Source: Planctomycetota bacterium (GTDB taxonomy: Bacteria; Planctomycetota; Planctomycetia; Pirellulales; Pirellulaceae). From it: DNA of 33,759 nucleotides. The notes under the pieces were generated by a model. It was not told the origin of the DNA. It saw only the letters and a program-made list of their open reading frames with translations, and ran no database searches. Shown piece after piece: positions 25,825 to 33,542 of this stretch (its first letter is position 1; each line of letters opens with the position of its first letter). Position numbers and translations under genes: made by a program. The stretch spans positions 1-33,759 of the forward strand of contig JAPLNL010000031.1 in assembly GCA_026692905.1 (NCBI GenBank), given 5' to 3'.

Positions 25825-27096
25825 TTACACATGAAGCCCAGCAGCGTGGCCGGTGCTCCAAGCGGCTTGGAAATTGTAGCCGCCGATTGGTCCGTCTAAA
25901 TCGAGGATCTCCCCCGCGAAAAACAAGCCCGGCGTTTTGCGGCTCTGCATGTCTTGAAAGTTGACCTCGTTGAGTGCAACGCCGCCGGCAGTTACTTCCG
26001 CTTTTGGATACCCCCGTGTGCCATGTATCGGTACCGATAACGCTTTGAGTCGCTCGACCAATCCGTTGCGAACCTTCTTGGACATCTCGGCCGTGTGCAC
26101 TTCGTTGGTCGAACCCACGATTGCGACCAAGGACGTAGCAAGTCGTTTGGGTATTCGCTGACTGAGCACATTGGTTATCGTTTTGTTCGACTCTTTCGCA
26201 GCATCGATCAGCCACTGCTCGCAGGCTTCACGCGAAACATCCGGTAGCAGATCGACCAACATCGACGCAGGCACTTCATTGGCCAAATCCGAAAAGCAGC
26301 GGGATACATTCATGGCAGTTGGACCACTGCACCCCATATGCGTCCAAAGCAATCCACCTCGCGAGCTGGCTCGCTCCAGTTTTGCCATTTTGGAATCAGA
26401 ACCGATGACGCGGGCTGTTACCTCGACATCGTCAAGCGTAATGCCGCTCAGTTCATGAACCCACGCTTCCTTGGAGAGCAACGGTGTGAGGGCTGGCCGC
26501 AACGGAGTAATCGTATGGCCCATGGCTTGTGCCCAAGGATAGCCGTCGCCGGTCGTTCCGCAGCCGCTATAACTGAGGCCACCACATGTCAAGAGAAGCG
26601 AGTCGCACACAAATTGAGCGGTCGATTGTCCACCGATCATCGCTGTTACTTCGAAGCCGCCGCTTTCCAATGGCATAGGCCGAATCGATTGGACCGCAGC
26701 CCCTGTGACCAGACTGGCCCCTTCTCTGGCCAATCGCCGAACGACAGCATCGCGAACATCGATAGCTCGATCGCTGGCTGGGAATATCTTTCCGGTCTCC
26801 TCGACTTTGGTTGGAACCCCTTCTTGGTCCATTTGCCGAACGACATCTTGAGGTGACAAACGGCTCAAAACGGAGAGCAAAACGCGGCCGTTTTTGCCAA
26901 AGGCCTCAGCAATTTTTCGACTGTCGCAATTGTGGGTAATATTGCAACGGGTACCACCGGACATGAGGATCTTAACGCCGGCTTTGTTGTTCTTCTCCAA
27001 AATCAATACTTTTCGGCCTCGCGCAGCCGCGGTCCCAGCAGCCCAAAGCCCCGCTGCACCACCACCAACAATAATAACGTCCCAACGCGTTTGCAT
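25825..27096 (-). CDS. BaiN/HI0933-family FAD-dependent oxidoreductase
   Basis: A 423-residue flavoprotein of the HI0933/YhiN/BaiN family. The N-terminal dinucleotide-binding motif is VIIVGGGAAGLWAAG (about 7-21), followed by LILEKNNKAGVKILMSGGTRCNITH, the family's strongest signature. LLTCGGLSYSGCGTTGDGYPWAQAMGH lies in the middle. The C-terminus has KAEVTAGGVALNEVN and LFFAGEILDLDGPIGGYNFQAAWSTGHAAG, which close the FAD site. The physiological reaction is unsettled: BaiN of gut clostridia has been linked to bile-acid reduction, but most members are unassigned. I use ATG 27094-27096 because the FAD motif should start within ten residues. Divergent from the radical SAM gene with 114 bases between starts. 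Confidence 0.92.
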   Translation of the reverse strand: MQTRWDVIIVGGGAAGLWAAGTAAARGRKVLILEKNNKAGVKILMSGGTRCNITHNCDSRKIAEAFGKNGRVLLSVLSRLSPQDVVRQMDQEGVPTKVEETGKIFPASDRAIDVRDAVVRRLAREGASLVTGAAVQSIRPMPLESGGFEVTAMIGGQSTAQFVCDSLLLTCGGLSYSGCGTTGDGYPWAQAMGHTITPLRPALTPLLSKEAWVHELSGITLDDVEVTARVIGSDSKMAKLERASSRGGLLWTHMGCSGPTAMNVSRCFSDLANEVPASMLVDLLPDVSREACEQWLIDAAKESNKTITNVLSQRIPKRLATSLVAIVGSTNEVHTAEMSKKVRNGLVERLKALSVPIHGTRGYPKAEVTAGGVALNEVNFQDMQSRKTPGLFFAGEILDLDGPIGGYNFQAAWSTGHAAGLHV

Positions 27097-27210
27097 GAAT
27101 GATTCGCTATTCGTTCTGCACGATTTTCGATTCGAGGTTACACTATGTGCGAAGGTTTTGGCGACTTTCGCCACCTATCGCCGATCCAAGGCTACCACCC
27201 AATCGCAACT

Positions 27211-28566
27211 ATGTCGACAGAAGTAAAAAAAACAGAAGTCGGAAGTTACTTCATTTCCAACTATCCTCCCTTTTCGCAGTGGACAGGCGATGCATTGCCT
27301 GCCATTACCTCCGCGATGGCGAGCCCACCTCGAATGCAACGCTCTGCTACTGGCGAAGCGGTCGAAACTCCGTTGGGGTTGTATCTGCACATTCCCTTCT
27401 GTCGCAAGCGATGCAAATTTTGCTACTTCAAGGTTTTCACCGACGTCAACGCGGGCGAAATCGAACGTTATGTTTCGGCATTGACCCGTGAAATCGAACT
27501 CGTTTCGCAGCAACCGGTCATGGGTGGCCGCCCCTTCCGTTTTGTGTACTTTGGAGGCGGGACACCGAGCTTTCTATCGGTGAAGCAATTGCAATCGCTG
27601 TTCGATCGATTGCACAAGAGTATCTCCTGGGAGCAGGCCGAAGAGGTTACCTTTGAATGCGAGCCGGGTACGCTCAGCGAATCCAAAGTGCACGCGCTCC
27701 GCGAGCTCGGGGTGACACGGTTGAGTCTCGGCGTTGAGAATTTCTCCGACGCCATCTTGGAGGAGAACGGTCGAGCCCACCTTTCGAAGGAGATTCATCG
27801 GGCGTGGGAGTGGATTGTGGCCGCTGGCATCCCGAACGTGAATATCGATTTGATTTCGGGCATGGTCGGCGAGACCTGGGACAATTGGCGAGAAAACGTC
27901 CGAAAGACATTGGAGCTTTCGCCGGAAAGCGTCACGATCTATCAGATGGAGTTACCGTTCAACACCGTCTACTCCAAAGGCCTACTGCAGACGCACGAGG
28001 CGGCACCGGTCGCCGATTGGCAAACCAAACGCGATTGGGTTCAATACGCGTTCGAAGAGTTTCAGAAATCGGGCTACAAAGTGAGCAGCGCTTACACCGT
28101 TGTGAAAGACCCGACGAAAGTAAGTTTCTCCTATCGCGATAACTTGTGGCGCGGTTCCGACTTGATCGCGACCGGCATCGCCAGCTTTGGGCATGTGTCG
28201 GGCGTGCACTACCAAAACGTACCGGAATGGCCGCAGTATCTCGGCGCTTTGCTCGATGAAAATCGGCTACCGATTGGACGCGCCTTTGTGCCAACCGAAG
28301 AACAATCGCTCATTCGCGAAATGATTCTGCAATTGAAGCGTGGTTATCTCGACGTTGGATACTTCCAGGCGAAGTTTGACACCAATATCGTCGAGCGTTG
28401 GGAAAAAGAGTGGAACGAATACGTCGACGAAGGATACGTCATATTGAAATCCGACGACGCGGGCAAATGCAATCGAGTCGAATTGACGATCGACGGATTG
28501 CTGCGGGTCGATGGCCTGTTGACGGCGTTTTTTGAGCCGCAGTTTCGTGGAGTCAGGTACACATGA
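27211..28566 (+). CDS. Radical SAM protein, coproporphyrinogen III oxidase (HemN/HemW)-like
   Basis: A 451-residue radical SAM enzyme. GLYLHIPFCRKRCKFCYF carries the [4Fe-4S] cluster cysteines C64, C68 and C71 (CxxxCxxC). YFGGGTPSFLS (GGGTP 115-119) is the SAM motif; TFECEPGTLSESK and RLSLGVENFSD follow as in HemN/HemW. The C-terminal domain has the HemN-C-like IREMILQLKRGYLDV. No HemW-type haem-binding evidence can be read. About 55 residues precede the core, including FISNYPPFSQW. I take ATG 27211; the frame opens at 27145. It overlaps the next gene by four bases (ATGA). Context with a lipoyl-type carrier and a ferredoxin argues for a role other than simple haem synthesis. Reaction unknown. 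Confidence 0.85.
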   Translation: MSTEVKKTEVGSYFISNYPPFSQWTGDALPAITSAMASPPRMQRSATGEAVETPLGLYLHIPFCRKRCKFCYFKVFTDVNAGEIERYVSALTREIELVSQQPVMGGRPFRFVYFGGGTPSFLSVKQLQSLFDRLHKSISWEQAEEVTFECEPGTLSESKVHALRELGVTRLSLGVENFSDAILEENGRAHLSKEIHRAWEWIVAAGIPNVNIDLISGMVGETWDNWRENVRKTLELSPESVTIYQMELPFNTVYSKGLLQTHEAAPVADWQTKRDWVQYAFEEFQKSGYKVSSAYTVVKDPTKVSFSYRDNLWRGSDLIATGIASFGHVSGVHYQNVPEWPQYLGALLDENRLPIGRAFVPTEEQSLIREMILQLKRGYLDVGYFQAKFDTNIVERWEKEWNEYVDEGYVILKSDDAGKCNRVELTIDGLLRVDGLLTAFFEPQFRGVRYT

Positions 28567-29039
28567 GCGAGTCGCTCACGTTCATGATGGGGGATTTTGC
28601 AGCCGAGTTTCCCACGGATCGACTTTACGCAAAAAATCATATGTGGGCTATCCGAATGCCGGACGACGTCGTTCGGTTTGGCTTTTCGGCTTACGCCGTC
28701 CGGTTGTTGCAAGATATTTATTTCTTGGAGTTTGAGATCGATAAGAATTCCGAGTTGACGAACCGTCAGGAGTTCGGCAACATCGAAAGCAAGAAGGCCG
28801 AAAGCGGATTGTACTCACCGATGGCTGGCAAAGTGGTCCGCATCAATGATCAGTTGCTGAACGACCCATCCGGCATTAACGTGGACAAGTACGGCGAAGG
28901 CTGGTTGATGGAGATGCGGGGCGATTCCAACGAATTGCTGACGCCGACGCAGTATTTAGAACACTTGGCAAAAGCCTGGGAGATTGCCCAACGTACAATC
29001 AAGGGGCAAGCCAACACGATGGAAACGAACGAGGAATAG
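28563..29039 (+). CDS. GcvH-like lipoyl-domain protein
   Basis: A 158-residue relative of the glycine cleavage H protein. The lipoyl hairpin is NIESKKAESGLYSPMAGKVVRIND (73-96); Lys78 in ESKKAES aligns with the lipoylated Lys of GcvH (ES-x-KA-x-S). NHMWAIRMPDDVVRFGFSAYA and GEGWLMEMRG are the other H-protein blocks. It has about 30 extra residues compared with GcvH, mostly an N-terminal extension of about 20 and a polar tail. No GcvP or GcvT gene is adjacent. ATG overlaps the radical SAM stop (ATGA), so translation is coupled, and the ferredoxin gene follows after two bases. It probably carries lipoate or a related group for that pathway (inference). Confidence 0.88.
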   Translation: MSESLTFMMGDFAAEFPTDRLYAKNHMWAIRMPDDVVRFGFSAYAVRLLQDIYFLEFEIDKNSELTNRQEFGNIESKKAESGLYSPMAGKVVRINDQLLNDPSGINVDKYGEGWLMEMRGDSNELLTPTQYLEHLAKAWEIAQRTIKGQANTMETNEE

Positions 29040-29041
29040 AC

Positions 29042-30217
29042 ATGGTCGATTCAAGCAACGGTAGTTCACAATCCGATAGGGTTTTGGCCAATGGAGTTCC
29101 GGCCAATGGACTTTTGGTCGTGATATCGCAGGGGCAGAGTCGTAACCCTGAAAAGCGTGTGCTCGAGGATTCGATCGCGACGGTTGCTGCAAGCTTGCCA
29201 AACACAACGGGTCTTGTTGTGCCGCACCTGTATGACCTGGCATCAGACAGCCAAAGCGTTCTCAAGATGCGAGAGTGGACTGGCCCGATTGTGATTCTGA
29301 GCTGGCTCTTTGACCGAGCTGGTTTCTGGGTCCTCGACCGTCACGAGATTCGAGGTCAGCACGGTGAAGTCGAATTGAAAAATCTTGAACTTGCGAATGA
29401 CGACGACGAGGAAGAGGACGAGGACAAAGAAGACGAAAAGGCGGCGGATCGGGTCGCCAACATTGCGGTCCGACCGGCCCGCAGAATTTATTCGATCGAT
29501 ATGCGATCCGGAAATTCCGCCGAAGTCTTTGCGAAGGAGTTTCAACGCATTTTGGTTTCGGAACAACTAGATGCACCAAAGAAAGATCTGCTCTCACTCG
29601 ACAGGTTTTTGAACCCTACCAATTCGACCGCCTTGTCGATGGATGGTTCTGGACGATTGGATATTGTTGATAAACCGGTGTCGCACGAATCACCGTTGGG
29701 CATTGTCCCGATTCGAATGGACGAGCATCCGCAGCGGCGTTGGTATCCCGTGATCGACTACAGCCGATGCACGAATTGCATGGAGTGCATCGATTTCTGC
29801 TTGTTCGGTGTGTATGGAGTGGATCGAGGCGAGACCATTTTGGTTGAGCAACCGGACAACTGCCGCAAGGGATGCCCCGCATGTTCGAGAGTTTGCCCAG
29901 AAAATGCAATTATGTTTCCGCAGCACAAAACGCCGGCCATAGCTGGAGCACCGGTCGATGCGGGTGGATTTAAGATCGACTTGTCAAAGCTGTTCGGTGC
30001 TCCGGAACGAGACGAAGACCCCGTGGCAGCTGCTGCGAGAGAAAGAAACGAACAACTCATCCTGGCGGGCCGTGCAGCAGTCGACTTTAATCCAGCAAAT
30101 GCAGAATCAGCCGCTACCGAAACCCCACCGCTAGTCGAGACGATCGCGTCCAAGCCGGAACGTAAACCCGACGCGATCGATTCGCTTCTAGACCAACTCG
30201 ACGCCTTGGATTTGTAA
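29042..30217 (+). CDS. Two-cluster [4Fe-4S] ferredoxin-domain protein with unique N-terminal domain
   Basis: A 391-residue protein. Residues about 20-110 form an alpha/beta domain (GLLVVISQGQSRNPEKRV, then LVVPHLYDL, then IVILSWLFDRAGFWVLDRHEIRG) that I cannot assign. A very acidic linker (119-132, almost all Asp/Glu) follows. The ferredoxin part has CTNCMECIDFC (C243, C246, C249, C253) and CRKGCPACSRVCPENA (C274, C278, C281, C285), enough for two [4Fe-4S] clusters. The tail ends in a short amphipathic DAIDSLLDQLDALDL. No membrane segment or signal is seen, so it is cytoplasmic. Starts two bases after the GcvH-like stop. Likely electron donor or acceptor for the radical SAM or carrier step. 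Confidence 0.88.
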   Translation: MVDSSNGSSQSDRVLANGVPANGLLVVISQGQSRNPEKRVLEDSIATVAASLPNTTGLVVPHLYDLASDSQSVLKMREWTGPIVILSWLFDRAGFWVLDRHEIRGQHGEVELKNLELANDDDEEEDEDKEDEKAADRVANIAVRPARRIYSIDMRSGNSAEVFAKEFQRILVSEQLDAPKKDLLSLDRFLNPTNSTALSMDGSGRLDIVDKPVSHESPLGIVPIRMDEHPQRRWYPVIDYSRCTNCMECIDFCLFGVYGVDRGETILVEQPDNCRKGCPACSRVCPENAIMFPQHKTPAIAGAPVDAGGFKIDLSKLFGAPERDEDPVAAAARERNEQLILAGRAAVDFNPANAESAATETPPLVETIASKPERKPDAIDSLLDQLDALDL

Positions 30218-30599: not shown

Positions 30600-31523
30600 T
30601 TAAAGTTGGGGCGAATACTTTAGCTTCATCGTTTGCTTGACCGTCTGCTTTGTTTTGGTGCTTGGTTTCGCCGGGTCGGTGCTTTGCCTGTCGACCTTAA
30701 TGGACATTTCTTGTTTGAATTCGGAGTGGTCGATGCTGCCACGGGTGTTATCAAACCAAATGATGCCTCCGGATTCTTGGCTTTCCATTTTCAGCCCCGA
30801 ATTGCCAATCGCATCCGCGACCTTGATTGCCTTCGTTTCCTTAATGCGGTCCAATATTCTCCCTCCGACCGTTTCTTCGCCGAGATACTGATACGTTGTG
30901 CTCACTATCAATTTCCCAAACGGGGGCATTTCTAGTTCATATTGAGCAGGCCAGCTTTCGCCGACACCGATCGATTTTGCTGGAAACGTGAGGGTTCCAT
31001 TTGCTGCGATTTCCTTGAGGCCGGCGATACTTAGCTCATTAAGATTCTTGAGCATATCATCTGGGATTACGACATCTGAAACCTCGCCGCTTGGTTTCGT
31101 TTTAACTACAAACCGGGAGCCGGCCAACGGTCGAATTCCTTTTGCCATCAACTCACCAATTCCTGTTAGCGGCTGATTGTTGTTGGTGTCGATTTGAAAA
31201 TTCCCGGCTGGTGACTTTAAATCGAGTTGAACCCGTTTGACCAACTGCTCGATGGATGCTTGACCATCCGGCGCGATCTCTTTGACGGTCCATGTGATGT
31301 TGGAAATCTGGTGTTGCTGAGTCTGGATAGGTGAGACCGCTCCGCCGCTGGCTGTTTCCATTTGGATGCTTGTATCTTGCTCGATCAGCAAGTTGGTGAC
31401 GCTGTCTCTTTTGAATTTCCATGCGAGGGTTTTCTGAGCCCAGCAGGCAGGTGTCGCAAAGACAAATGCGGATACGAACACAACAAAGGCCGTTAGCCTA
31501 CGCAAAAGAACAGGAGGAATCAT
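30600..31523 (-). CDS. Secreted DUF6263-like protein
   Basis: A 307-residue protein with a signal peptide (RRLTAFVVFVSAFVFATPACWAQ, about residues 8-29). The rest is mostly beta: LAWKFKRDSVTNLLIEQDTS, TWTVKEIAPDGQASIEQLVKRVQL, GSRFVVKTKPSGEVSDV and GVGESWPAQ are blocks I associate with DUF6263, a planctomycete family of unknown function. A Lys/Thr/Gln-rich C-terminus precedes KLKYSPQL. ATG 31521-31523 is preceded by AGGA at nine bases. Single gene. The 144-bp element abuts its 3' end without changing the reading frame as far as can be seen. Confidence 0.75.
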   Translation of the reverse strand: MIPPVLLRRLTAFVVFVSAFVFATPACWAQKTLAWKFKRDSVTNLLIEQDTSIQMETASGGAVSPIQTQQHQISNITWTVKEIAPDGQASIEQLVKRVQLDLKSPAGNFQIDTNNNQPLTGIGELMAKGIRPLAGSRFVVKTKPSGEVSDVVIPDDMLKNLNELSIAGLKEIAANGTLTFPAKSIGVGESWPAQYELEMPPFGKLIVSTTYQYLGEETVGGRILDRIKETKAIKVADAIGNSGLKMESQESGGIIWFDNTRGSIDHSEFKQEMSIKVDRQSTDPAKPSTKTKQTVKQTMKLKYSPQL

Positions 31524-31763
31524 TCTTGGTTTCCTGATGGGAAGTGAAATTTGCGGAGTTCATTTCATGCTGTTTCGCGAAGAATGCTAGCAGGGCTCCA
31601 TGACAAACATGACAATAACCATGCAATGTTATAGTAGACTTGGATCGATATGACCACCTCGCCGTTGGTTGCGAGACTTCGAATCATGCCCTTTGTGCTA
31701 AGATATCCCAAGCATTCGTCGAGTCGCGATGAGACCCATTTCCCAACTTCAAGCACTTCAAAT

Positions 31764-33542
31764 ATGAATCGTTTCCATCTCAAACCATTGTTGGCAATTC
31801 CAATTGGCCTTTTGCTCAGTCTGCAGCCTATCAACGAAGCTATCGGGCAATCCAGCAAGCCCTCCGCCGGTCCGAACGACGCCGAGGTTGCGAGCGCATT
31901 TCAAGTGTGGCTTGACGCGGAATGCAAACGGCATCCGGTTTTCGCGACACAACAAGGAATGCGAGAGTTCGATGGCCAAATGGACGATTTATCAACCAAA
32001 GCACGCGCAGAGGATGCGAAACAGGACGAAGCAGTATTGCTCGAGTTGTCCAAAAAGTTTGACCGAGCCAAGCTCTCCAGGAACGCACAGATCGATCTAG
32101 AAATATGGGAAAGCTTTTTGAAATATCGCGGCTGGCAATACAAAAATAGCGATGACTTTGCCAACGACCCTAGAACGTATCTTGTTTACTGCTCCGATAG
32201 CGTCTTCGGTTTATTCACTCAGTCCACGCTACCACGTCACCGAAATGTCGAAAACGCAGCTAGCCGAATCGCACATATTCCTGAGGTCCTTGCCGCCGCG
32301 AAAGCTTCGCTCAAAAACCCGCCCAAAATCCTGACTGAGGTGGCGATCAAACGAACCGATGGTGCGATCGCTTTTTACGACAAGGATATCTTTGCACTTG
32401 CCGAAGAGTCACCTCAAATCAGCTCGCTCGCGAGCCCAAGTCGCAAAGCGGCTGACGCACTGCGCGAGTACAAAAAATTCTTGGAGGACGAGGTCTTGCC
32501 ACGATCCAACGGCGAATGGCGAATCGGAGAAAAAAAGTTCAGCGAGAAACTGTCCATGGAATTGGACGCTGGACTCACTGCAAAAGAAGTCATCGATACC
32601 GCAGAAGCAGAAGCGGATCGGGTGGAACGCGAAATGTACTACGTCGCCAAGCAACTTTGGAGCTCCGTTTTCGAGAATATAACGGTGTATCCAGACGATG
32701 CGACTGGTCGACGCGAGACCATTCGAGCCGTGTTGGCTGAGCTTGGTAAAGACCGCGGATCGGCCACAACGCTGCTGACCGACACGAAAAACACGGTCGA
32801 CAAAATCAAGAAGTTCATCGAGCGCAAGAAGATTCTGACGCTCCCGAATCCTGATCAATGTTCCATTATCGAAATGCCGGAGTTTCAACGCGGGTTTTCG
32901 GCCGCCTACCTAAACCAAGCTCCCCCGTTAGACTCGAAAGCAAAGAGCCTTTACGCGATCTCACCACCTCCTTCCGATTGGCCGACCGAACGTCAAGATG
33001 CGTTCTTCCAAGAGTACAATCGCTCGATGCTGCAGGTGCTTACGATCCACGAAGCGTATCCAGGACACTACGTCCAACTCGATTACAGCAACCGAATGGA
33101 TTCTCTCGTTCGCAAAGTTCTTTCGTCGGGAGTCTTTGCCGAGGGATGGGCCGTCTATACGGAACAAATGATGCTTGATGAAGGCTACGGGGACGGGGAC
33201 CTTGCACTGCGTCTTCATCAGCTCAAGTTCTACATGCGAGCGGTGTTAAATGCGATTCTGGACTATCGCATGCACTGCTCCGCCATGACAGACGACGAAG
33301 CTTTATCATTGCTCGTCGATCGCGGTTTTCAGACCACCGGCGAAGCGGTCGGCAAGATCCAACGAGCCAAACAAAGCTCCTGTCAGTTATCGACTTATTT
33401 TGTTGGCAGGACAGCCTTTTATCGTTTGCGTCAAAACGTTCAACGAGCTCGCGGTAATGCATTTGAGCTCGGGCCGTACCACGAAGAGGTCCTGCTCAAA
33501 GGAACTTTGCCTGTGAAGTATTTGCCTGAGCTGGTTAAGTAG
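31764..33542 (+). CDS. DUF885 family metallopeptidase-like lipoprotein/secreted protein
   Basis: A 592-residue DUF885 protein. The signal peptide MNRFHLKPLLAIPIGLLLSL is followed by a predicted cleavage near IGQ, so it is exported. The zinc-peptidase-like HEAYPGH lies at 429-435 (His429, Glu430, His435) and FAEGWAVYTEQ supplies a downstream glutamate (Glu460), as in M32/M3-like gluzincins. SIIEMPEFQRG and the C-terminal GAYxxG-type FELGPYHEEVL are also typical. Probably a periplasmic peptidase; substrate unknown. I place the start at ATG 31764 because it gives a signal peptide at the N-terminus; the frame is open from 31650. No strong ribosome site. Single gene, followed by repeats. Confidence 0.9.
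   Translation: MNRFHLKPLLAIPIGLLLSLQPINEAIGQSSKPSAGPNDAEVASAFQVWLDAECKRHPVFATQQGMREFDGQMDDLSTKARAEDAKQDEAVLLELSKKFDRAKLSRNAQIDLEIWESFLKYRGWQYKNSDDFANDPRTYLVYCSDSVFGLFTQSTLPRHRNVENAASRIAHIPEVLAAAKASLKNPPKILTEVAIKRTDGAIAFYDKDIFALAEESPQISSLASPSRKAADALREYKKFLEDEVLPRSNGEWRIGEKKFSEKLSMELDAGLTAKEVIDTAEAEADRVEREMYYVAKQLWSSVFENITVYPDDATGRRETIRAVLAELGKDRGSATTLLTDTKNTVDKIKKFIERKKILTLPNPDQCSIIEMPEFQRGFSAAYLNQAPPLDSKAKSLYAISPPPSDWPTERQDAFFQEYNRSMLQVLTIHEAYPGHYVQLDYSNRMDSLVRKVLSSGVFAEGWAVYTEQMMLDEGYGDGDLALRLHQLKFYMRAVLNAILDYRMHCSAMTDDEALSLLVDRGFQTTGEAVGKIQRAKQSSCQLSTYFVGRTAFYRLRQNVQRARGNAFELGPYHEEVLLKGTLPVKYLPELVK

Follow-up and report, generated by a model that had tools for sequence, protein, structure and literature searches.

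A GcvH-like lipoyl carrier and a ferredoxin at a proposed junction of two planctomycete gene modules, and their co-occurrence with a SPASM-type radical SAM enzyme

Introduction

Adjacent genes for a HemN-family radical S-adenosylmethionine (SAM) enzyme, a GcvH-like lipoyl carrier and a ferredoxin protein are present on contig JAPLNL010000031.1 of the Planctomycetota assembly GCA_026692905.1 (Pirellulaceae), positions 1 to 33,759 of which are referred to here as the window. The locus raises the question of which enzyme the carrier and the ferredoxin serve. An earlier note on this DNA regarded the trio as a dedicated pathway with the adjoining HemN-type enzyme as the partner of the other two proteins. 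The analysis of relatives points to another partner. With a probability of about 0.53, the trio is read as the place where two modules of a single biosynthetic gene set of planctomycetes meet, and in this set the carrier and the ferredoxin would serve a SPASM-type radical SAM enzyme and a terpenoid-related pathway.

Co-occurrence across genomes

Sixty relatives were each searched with every protein of the set. The HemN-type enzyme was found in 57 of these genomes and an AMP-ligase-like protein in 56, a DUF116-polyprenyl synthase (PPS) and a squalene-hopene-cyclase-like protein (SHC) in 49 each, and the ferredoxin and the SPASM enzyme in 45 each. An orthologue of the carrier was present in 31 genomes and a variant, GcvHb, in 11 more; the presence sets were copied by hand from the search tables, and the 11 GcvHb genomes were assigned by judgement, their rows having 26-31% identity and most of them lying near a ferredoxin paralogue. 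The ferredoxin and the SPASM enzyme occurred together in 44 genomes, each occurred alone in 1, and both were missing from 14, an agreement of 58/60 (phi 0.91). One of the two exceptions was an assembly break (L213, L214). The ferredoxin agreed with SHC in 56/60 genomes (phi 0.82), and carrier and ferredoxin orthologues agreed in 56/60 as well. No association of the ferredoxin with the HemN-type enzyme (phi -0.13) or the ligase (phi -0.15) was seen. In each of the families f3 and f7 the pair was present in one genome and missing from another, so the agreement between ferredoxin and SPASM enzyme does not reflect a single old split.

Of 392 genomes sampled from the phylum, 95 had the ferredoxin domain. 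In presence sets again copied by hand, ferredoxin and SPASM enzyme were both counted in 83 genomes, the ferredoxin alone in 12, the SPASM enzyme alone in 2 and neither in 295, after ten genomes with a best SPASM row of E 1.6e-52 or weaker (at most 35% identity) had been dropped as non-orthologous, and on the assumption that both searches covered identical genomes (same handles, same number). Forty loci were picked from the lists of the 95 ferredoxin matches, as a non-random sample; a GcvH-type gene lay within 4 kb in 31 of them, and 6 contained a HemN-type gene in the stretch. The other sets of loci taken from match lists were likewise selected rather than drawn at random. Eight of ten loci from the same class (L144-L153) had the GcvH-ferredoxin pair, and none of these 19-kb stretches had a HemN-type gene. 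Thirteen of the 60 relatives possessed the HemN-type enzyme and the ligase and neither carrier nor ferredoxin. In such genomes the HemN-type gene stood in module A, described below, and/or beside a chorismate-lyase-like, SHC or PPS gene (L190-L194, L196, L198, L199); ligase, dehydrogenase and propeller genes accompanied it in L192, L193, L194, L196, L198 and L199, and it stood alone in L195 and L197.

These counts bear on the reading of the earlier note, in which the HemN-type enzyme would work on a carrier-bound group, using electrons from the ferredoxin. The gene junction speaks for it. In a scan of named genomes with the HemN-type protein, limited to the best 80 of 580 confirmed loci and hence to near relatives, a GcvH gene followed the HemN-type gene in 61 of the 77 loci with at least 700 bases downstream, and 25 of the 61 kept the overlapping spacing. 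Since these loci had been found by the HemN-type gene alone, the junction is not due to chance. However, the 13 genomes with the HemN-type enzyme and the ligase only, the pairs of L144-L153 and the negative phi value make this reading unlikely. The HemN-type gene was retained regardless of the carrier and the ferredoxin, whereas the SPASM gene tracked the pair, and the counts do not support the HemN-type enzyme as the partner. What stands of the dedicated pathway is a carrier with its own ferredoxin outside glycine cleavage, tied to radical SAM genes and with a conserved lysine. The three genes lay apart from one another outside the bacterial order and were not scattered inside it. The co-occurrence result illustrates that operon adjacency by itself can point to the wrong partner.

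Gene order in relatives

The titles of the 80 loci named planctomycetes (Pirellula, Blastopirellula, Rhodopirellula, Stieleria, Mariniblastus and others) or an unspecified bacterium. In the locus of Blastopirellula marina DSM 3645 (L138), the HemN-type, GcvH and ferredoxin genes followed one another in this sequence. The recurring order was AMP-ligase-like protein, aldehyde dehydrogenase (ALDH)-family protein, Fe-alcohol dehydrogenase, beta-propeller of the pyrroloquinoline quinone type, HemN-type enzyme, GcvH-like carrier and ferredoxin. With the window counted in, the whole seven-gene order was present in 13 of 81 loci, many of which were short contigs. Taken singly, the ligase was represented in 31 of the 81 loci, the ALDH-family protein in 34, the Fe-alcohol dehydrogenase in 41, the propeller in 55, the HemN-type enzyme in 81, the carrier in 53 and the ferredoxin in 42. 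Among the 61 HemN-type loci with at least 3 kb, 34 held the ferredoxin gene. Genes for the SPASM-type enzyme, SHC, PPS and a protein of 190 residues followed downstream in some loci, and all eleven genes of the combined set stood together in L159.

Two modules could be distinguished in the relatives. Module A comprised the AMP ligase, the ALDH-family protein, the Fe-alcohol dehydrogenase and the propeller and was ended by the HemN-type enzyme. Module B began with the GcvH-like carrier and the ferredoxin and included SHC, PPS and the SPASM-type enzyme. The best match of the 190-residue protein was 2nwi_A, a weak one (E 0.079); 2nwi is titled hypothetical protein and is presumably chorismate-lyase-like.

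Several further features of these neighbourhoods were recorded. DUF116 was fused to polyprenyl synthase at L058:1836-3662 and in relatives; in G053 and G055 the DUF116 part was not covered, the PPS match spanning only query positions 233-599 and 235-590. A tryptophan-halogenase/geranylgeranyl-reductase-like flavoprotein recurred in L182, L198, L219, L153 and L061, and a small protein, hotdog-thioesterase-like by eye alone, in L052, L118, L182, L190, L196, L198 and L199. A UbiA-type prenyltransferase was looked for by eye only, among the recurring neighbours, and was dropped as a candidate. The HemN-type genes of L067, L068, L070, L071 and L216 had no GcvH-like neighbour; the gcvP gene of L070 scored 625 bits with GDC-P.

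The GcvH-like carrier

The carrier matched GCV_H (PF01597) with 76 bits against a curated score of 22.2. Its candidate lipoyl residue, Lys78, was invariant in all 90 GcvH-type rows (82 window-type rows and 8 paralogues), which represent 86 distinct sequences, some genomes having been fetched twice. The lysine on which the earlier note had made its reading depend was thus conserved. GcvT, a canonical GcvH and an LplA/LipB-family gene stand together on contig C18 of the same genome, a second LplA/LipB-family gene is present on C128 and LipA on C122. The absence of GcvT and lipoate ligase stated in the earlier note therefore holds for the window at most. As a normal gcvT-gcvH-ligase locus exists elsewhere in the genome, the carrier of the window is an additional copy, and the LipA and LplA/LipB-family genes make lipoylation of Lys78 possible.

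The employment of a GcvH-like carrier outside glycine cleavage would also fit a sulfur carrier of the sHdr type, comparable to LbpA. According to PMC6067878, the LbpA proteins of this system carry two Cys that are strictly conserved and lie near the termini; GcvH lacks them except in some archaea. Of the 82 window-type sequences, however, 43 contained no Cys, 33 contained one and 6 contained two. As the defining Cys pair is missing, an LbpA-like function is highly improbable. Among the conserved neighbours of the trio, neither a dedicated lipoate ligase nor any Hdr-like gene was recognised, in a comparison that did not include model searches for HdrB and HdrC.

In a tree of 40 GcvH-type rows, support was 95/89 for the group of 14 GcvHb rows and lower, at 84/73, for that of the other 25 cluster rows; the single canonical row had an extremely long branch, and no usable root was obtained. 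L156 and L157, which are among these 25 rows, have CobW alongside, and version and tree group did not fully match.

The ferredoxin protein and the sister version

The ferredoxin matched Fer4_7 with 36 bits (cut-off 27), and its eight Cys (243, 246, 249, 253, 274, 278, 281 and 285) were invariant in 55/55 distinct rows. The N-terminal domain had been left unassigned in the earlier note and is still without a known relative: library searches, among them Pfam and Foldseek, gave no match for it, and the whole ferredoxin model gave nothing under E 0.001 with Foldseek. A folded domain is predicted, the ten-residue blocks from 21 to 120 having mean predicted local distance difference test values of 88-97.

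A sister version of the system had the order GcvHb, CobW GTPase, c11, ferredoxin, SPASM enzyme, PPS, c15 and SHC, with variations. The CobW-type GTPase was seen between GcvHb and c11 in L165, L171, L172, L177 and other sister-version loci. The c11 protein was separate and had four invariant Cys (10, 12, 44 and 68 of the first row) in 20 rows. It is proposed to be the counterpart of the ferredoxin N-domain because the ferredoxins of L181 and L175 carry a fused c11-type domain; these fusions are better evidence than the hhalign comparison of the two, which was weak (probability 7%, single-comparison P 0.005). A likeness of c11 to the HdrA N-terminal domain (pattern CxC...C...C-x-x-R...NMR), which would favour a sulfur carrier of the sHdr type, was seen by eye and gained no support from library searches. 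A PDB profile search yielded one weak unrelated match (E 0.25), and searches of Pfam and, with 20 members, of NCBIfam yielded nothing relevant, a direct comparison with an HdrA profile not being among them.

The close pairing of GcvH and ferredoxin in order and content, the four invariant Cys of c11 and the fusions in L181 and L175 would agree with a redox relay. The ferredoxin, with c11 or the N-domain, would then reduce or oxidise the lipoyl disulfide of the carrier, and the dithiol would be the electron partner of the SPASM enzyme or of another step, with no group carried. This is conceivable but doubtful, as the N-domain of the window ferredoxin (residues 20-112) contains no Cys and c11 matched none of the known disulfide reductases in the libraries searched.

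The two radical SAM enzymes

The SPASM enzyme has three extra invariant Cys, and its predicted structure was nearest in fold to SkfB, SuiB and anSME. Such an enzyme might alter the octanoyl or lipoyl group on the carrier to give a changed cofactor, comparable to the making of lipoate by LipA and LipS1/S2. The tendency of the carrier, the ferredoxin and the SPASM enzyme to occur together and the intact lysine motif are in line with this. The genome, however, is already equipped with LipA and with two genes of the LplA/LipB family, and the model does lie closest to SkfB, SuiB and anSME, so that a changed cofactor appears quite improbable.

The HemN-type enzyme belongs with the ligase and the dehydrogenases, in module A. 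It scored 76.4 bits with the Pfam model Radical_SAM, above the gathering score. In NCBIfam it was roughly equidistant from HutW, STM4012, HemW and HemN and below every cut-off (HutW, 173.7 bits of 400; HemW, 168.9 of 205.4; HemN, 165.4 of 324.95). Mapped by hand, its second-SAM residues Y58, Y113, R170, D213 and T242 align with Y34, Y96, R153, D196 and S225 of NocN, with one Ser/Thr change. The enzyme probably adds a one-carbon unit to an unsaturated intermediate or modifies it otherwise.

The locus in the window and other loci of the genome

The coordinates of the trio are listed in Table 1. The stop codon TGA of the HemN-type gene shares bases with the start codon of the carrier gene inside ATGA, and the ATG of the ferredoxin gene follows 2 bases after the carrier gene. 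This arrangement, described in the earlier note, was borne out by the coordinates of the open reading frames (ORFs), and the radical SAM Cys, Lys78 and the eight ferredoxin Cys that it reported as intact proved invariant across the aligned relatives. The HemN-type frame is open from 27145; Met at 27211 was present in 12 of 15 aligned rows, window included, and the remaining 3 rows were trimmed at the match start.

Table 1. Features of the trio locus (positions in the window)
Feature	Position	Strand	Evidence or remark
HemN-family radical SAM enzyme, 451 aa	27211..28566	+	ORF, Pfam/NCBIfam; closes module A in relatives
CX3CX2C radical SAM motif (Cys64, Cys68, Cys71)	27400..27423	+	invariant in 15/15 rows
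ATGA stop/start overlap, radical SAM gene / GcvH-like gene	28563..28566	+	sequence
GcvH-like lipoyl carrier, 158 aa	28563..29039	+	PF01597, 76 bits; second GcvH-type gene of the genome
Codon of candidate lipoyl Lys78, motif GNIESKKAE	28794..28796	+	invariant in 90/90 rows
2-base gap, GcvH-like / ferredoxin genes	29040..29041	+	sequence
Ferredoxin protein, 391 aa: N-terminal alpha/beta domain, acidic linker, 2x[4Fe-4S] domain, C-terminal tail	29042..30217	+	
Ferredoxin N-terminal domain, residues 20-112	29099..29377	+	confident structure prediction; proposed counterpart of c11
Eight cluster Cys: CX2CX2CX3C (243-253), CX3CX2CX3C (274-285)	29768..29896	+	invariant in 55/55 rows

Pfam was scanned with eight ORFs of the window. 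A flavoprotein of the HI0933/aminoacetone-oxidase family is encoded at 25825-27174 on the minus strand, divergent from the HemN-type gene, and the same neighbour was found in the near relatives L044-L048, L203 and L207. On the 3' side of the trio are a DUF885 protein (31650-33542, 335.9 bits) and a match to DUF6263 below the cut-off (30600-31523); no link of these to the trio was noticed. Elsewhere in the genome, the ligase and ALDH genes stand together on contig C121, the SHC, PPS and chorismate-lyase-like genes on C105, and the SPASM gene on C29.

Proposed function

From the observed gene content, gene order, conserved residues and co-occurrence, the GcvH-like carrier, the ferredoxin and the SPASM enzyme are regarded as a functional set whose members would be in direct contact. 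In module A, an unsaturated intermediate would be modified by the HemN-type enzyme, whose gene comes after those of the AMP ligase, the ALDH-family protein, the Fe-alcohol dehydrogenase and the propeller. In module B, a lipoyl arm on Lys78 would carry a group, or offer its dithiol, to the SPASM enzyme, which would receive its low-potential electrons from the ferredoxin. The two modules probably belong to one pathway and may yield one product. The PPS and SHC-like genes suggest that this product is a terpenoid, and only the weak chorismate-lyase-like gene suggests an aromatic part; of all steps of the proposal, the identity of the product is the least certain.

Several observations weigh against this proposal. 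In the source genome the tie of the SPASM enzyme to the carrier and the ferredoxin rests on co-occurrence and not on gene order, because the SPASM gene lies on another contig. The Fisher and phi statistics take no account of common ancestry, which inflates the P values. Carrier and ferredoxin were present in G040 with no SPASM match, and in G021, where the GcvH gene lies at a contig end, neither ferredoxin nor SPASM enzyme was found. G004, G011, G012, G026 and G052 had ferredoxin and SPASM enzyme and no GcvH-like gene in the presence sets, G012 being 76% and G026 82% complete. Module B does not hold together as a unit in every genome, because PPS occurred without the ferredoxin in genomes 8, 21, 39, 43, 53 and 55, and SHC in genomes 8, 21, 37 and 49. 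The preserved junction of 61/77 named loci could mean a direct tie between HemN-type enzyme and carrier, and the HemN-type gene stands a few genes from gcvP in L067, L068, L070, L071 and L216. The chorismate-lyase-like assignment depends on the single match mentioned above (E 0.079), and Pfam gave nothing for those members that were scanned.

As a tentative extension of the two-module proposal, the lipoylated GcvH-type protein, its dedicated ferredoxin and the SPASM enzyme might build or tether a terpenoid intermediate (polyprenyl-derived and cyclase-shaped) on the lipoyl arm, for example by radical C-S bond formation. This is rather speculative. Lipoate would then serve as the arm of an assembly line that makes lipids or natural products, and not as a cofactor of central metabolism or sulfur oxidation.

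Comparison with known systems

The proteins of the gene set are of known kinds. The ligase, ALDH and Fe-alcohol dehydrogenase genes form a set that we take to resemble the LuxC/LuxE fatty acid reductase, in that an AMP-ligase-like protein of about 370 aa adjoins an ALDH-family protein and an Fe-alcohol dehydrogenase. No LuxC or LuxE model was among the Pfam matches, however, and the AMP-binding match was below the cut-off. The HemN-type enzyme shares the CX3CX2C motif, the second-SAM residues and an alignment spanning most of HemN with HemN, HemW, HutW/ChuW and the class C methylases (NosN/NocN); unlike in these, its gene runs with ligase and dehydrogenase genes. The SPASM enzyme shares the fold and the three extra Cys of the SPASM/twitch enzymes, but scored far under the NCBIfam cut-offs of these families (best 69.6 of 525).

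The carrier resembles the GcvH of glycine cleavage in its PF01597 match and its lipoyl-lysine motif of the ESxKA type. It differs from canonical GcvH in missing the NCBIfam gcvH cut-offs (76.7 of 115.85 and 93.2 of 117 bits), in its longer C-terminus and in the presence of a canonical copy with GcvT elsewhere in the same genome. With LbpA (PMC6067878) it has in common that a lipoyl carrier of the GcvH kind is employed outside glycine cleavage, but it is without the two conserved Cys.

The combination of these parts was not found described in the open-licence literature, as judged from titles and the beginnings of abstracts. According to PMC10332631, lipoyl carriers are known from glycine cleavage, from 2-oxoacid dehydrogenases and from the sulfur pathway of the sHdr type. 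An additional user, connected with genes of the radical SAM and terpenoid kinds, would give an old cofactor a new role and would assign specific genes to an undescribed product of planctomycetes.

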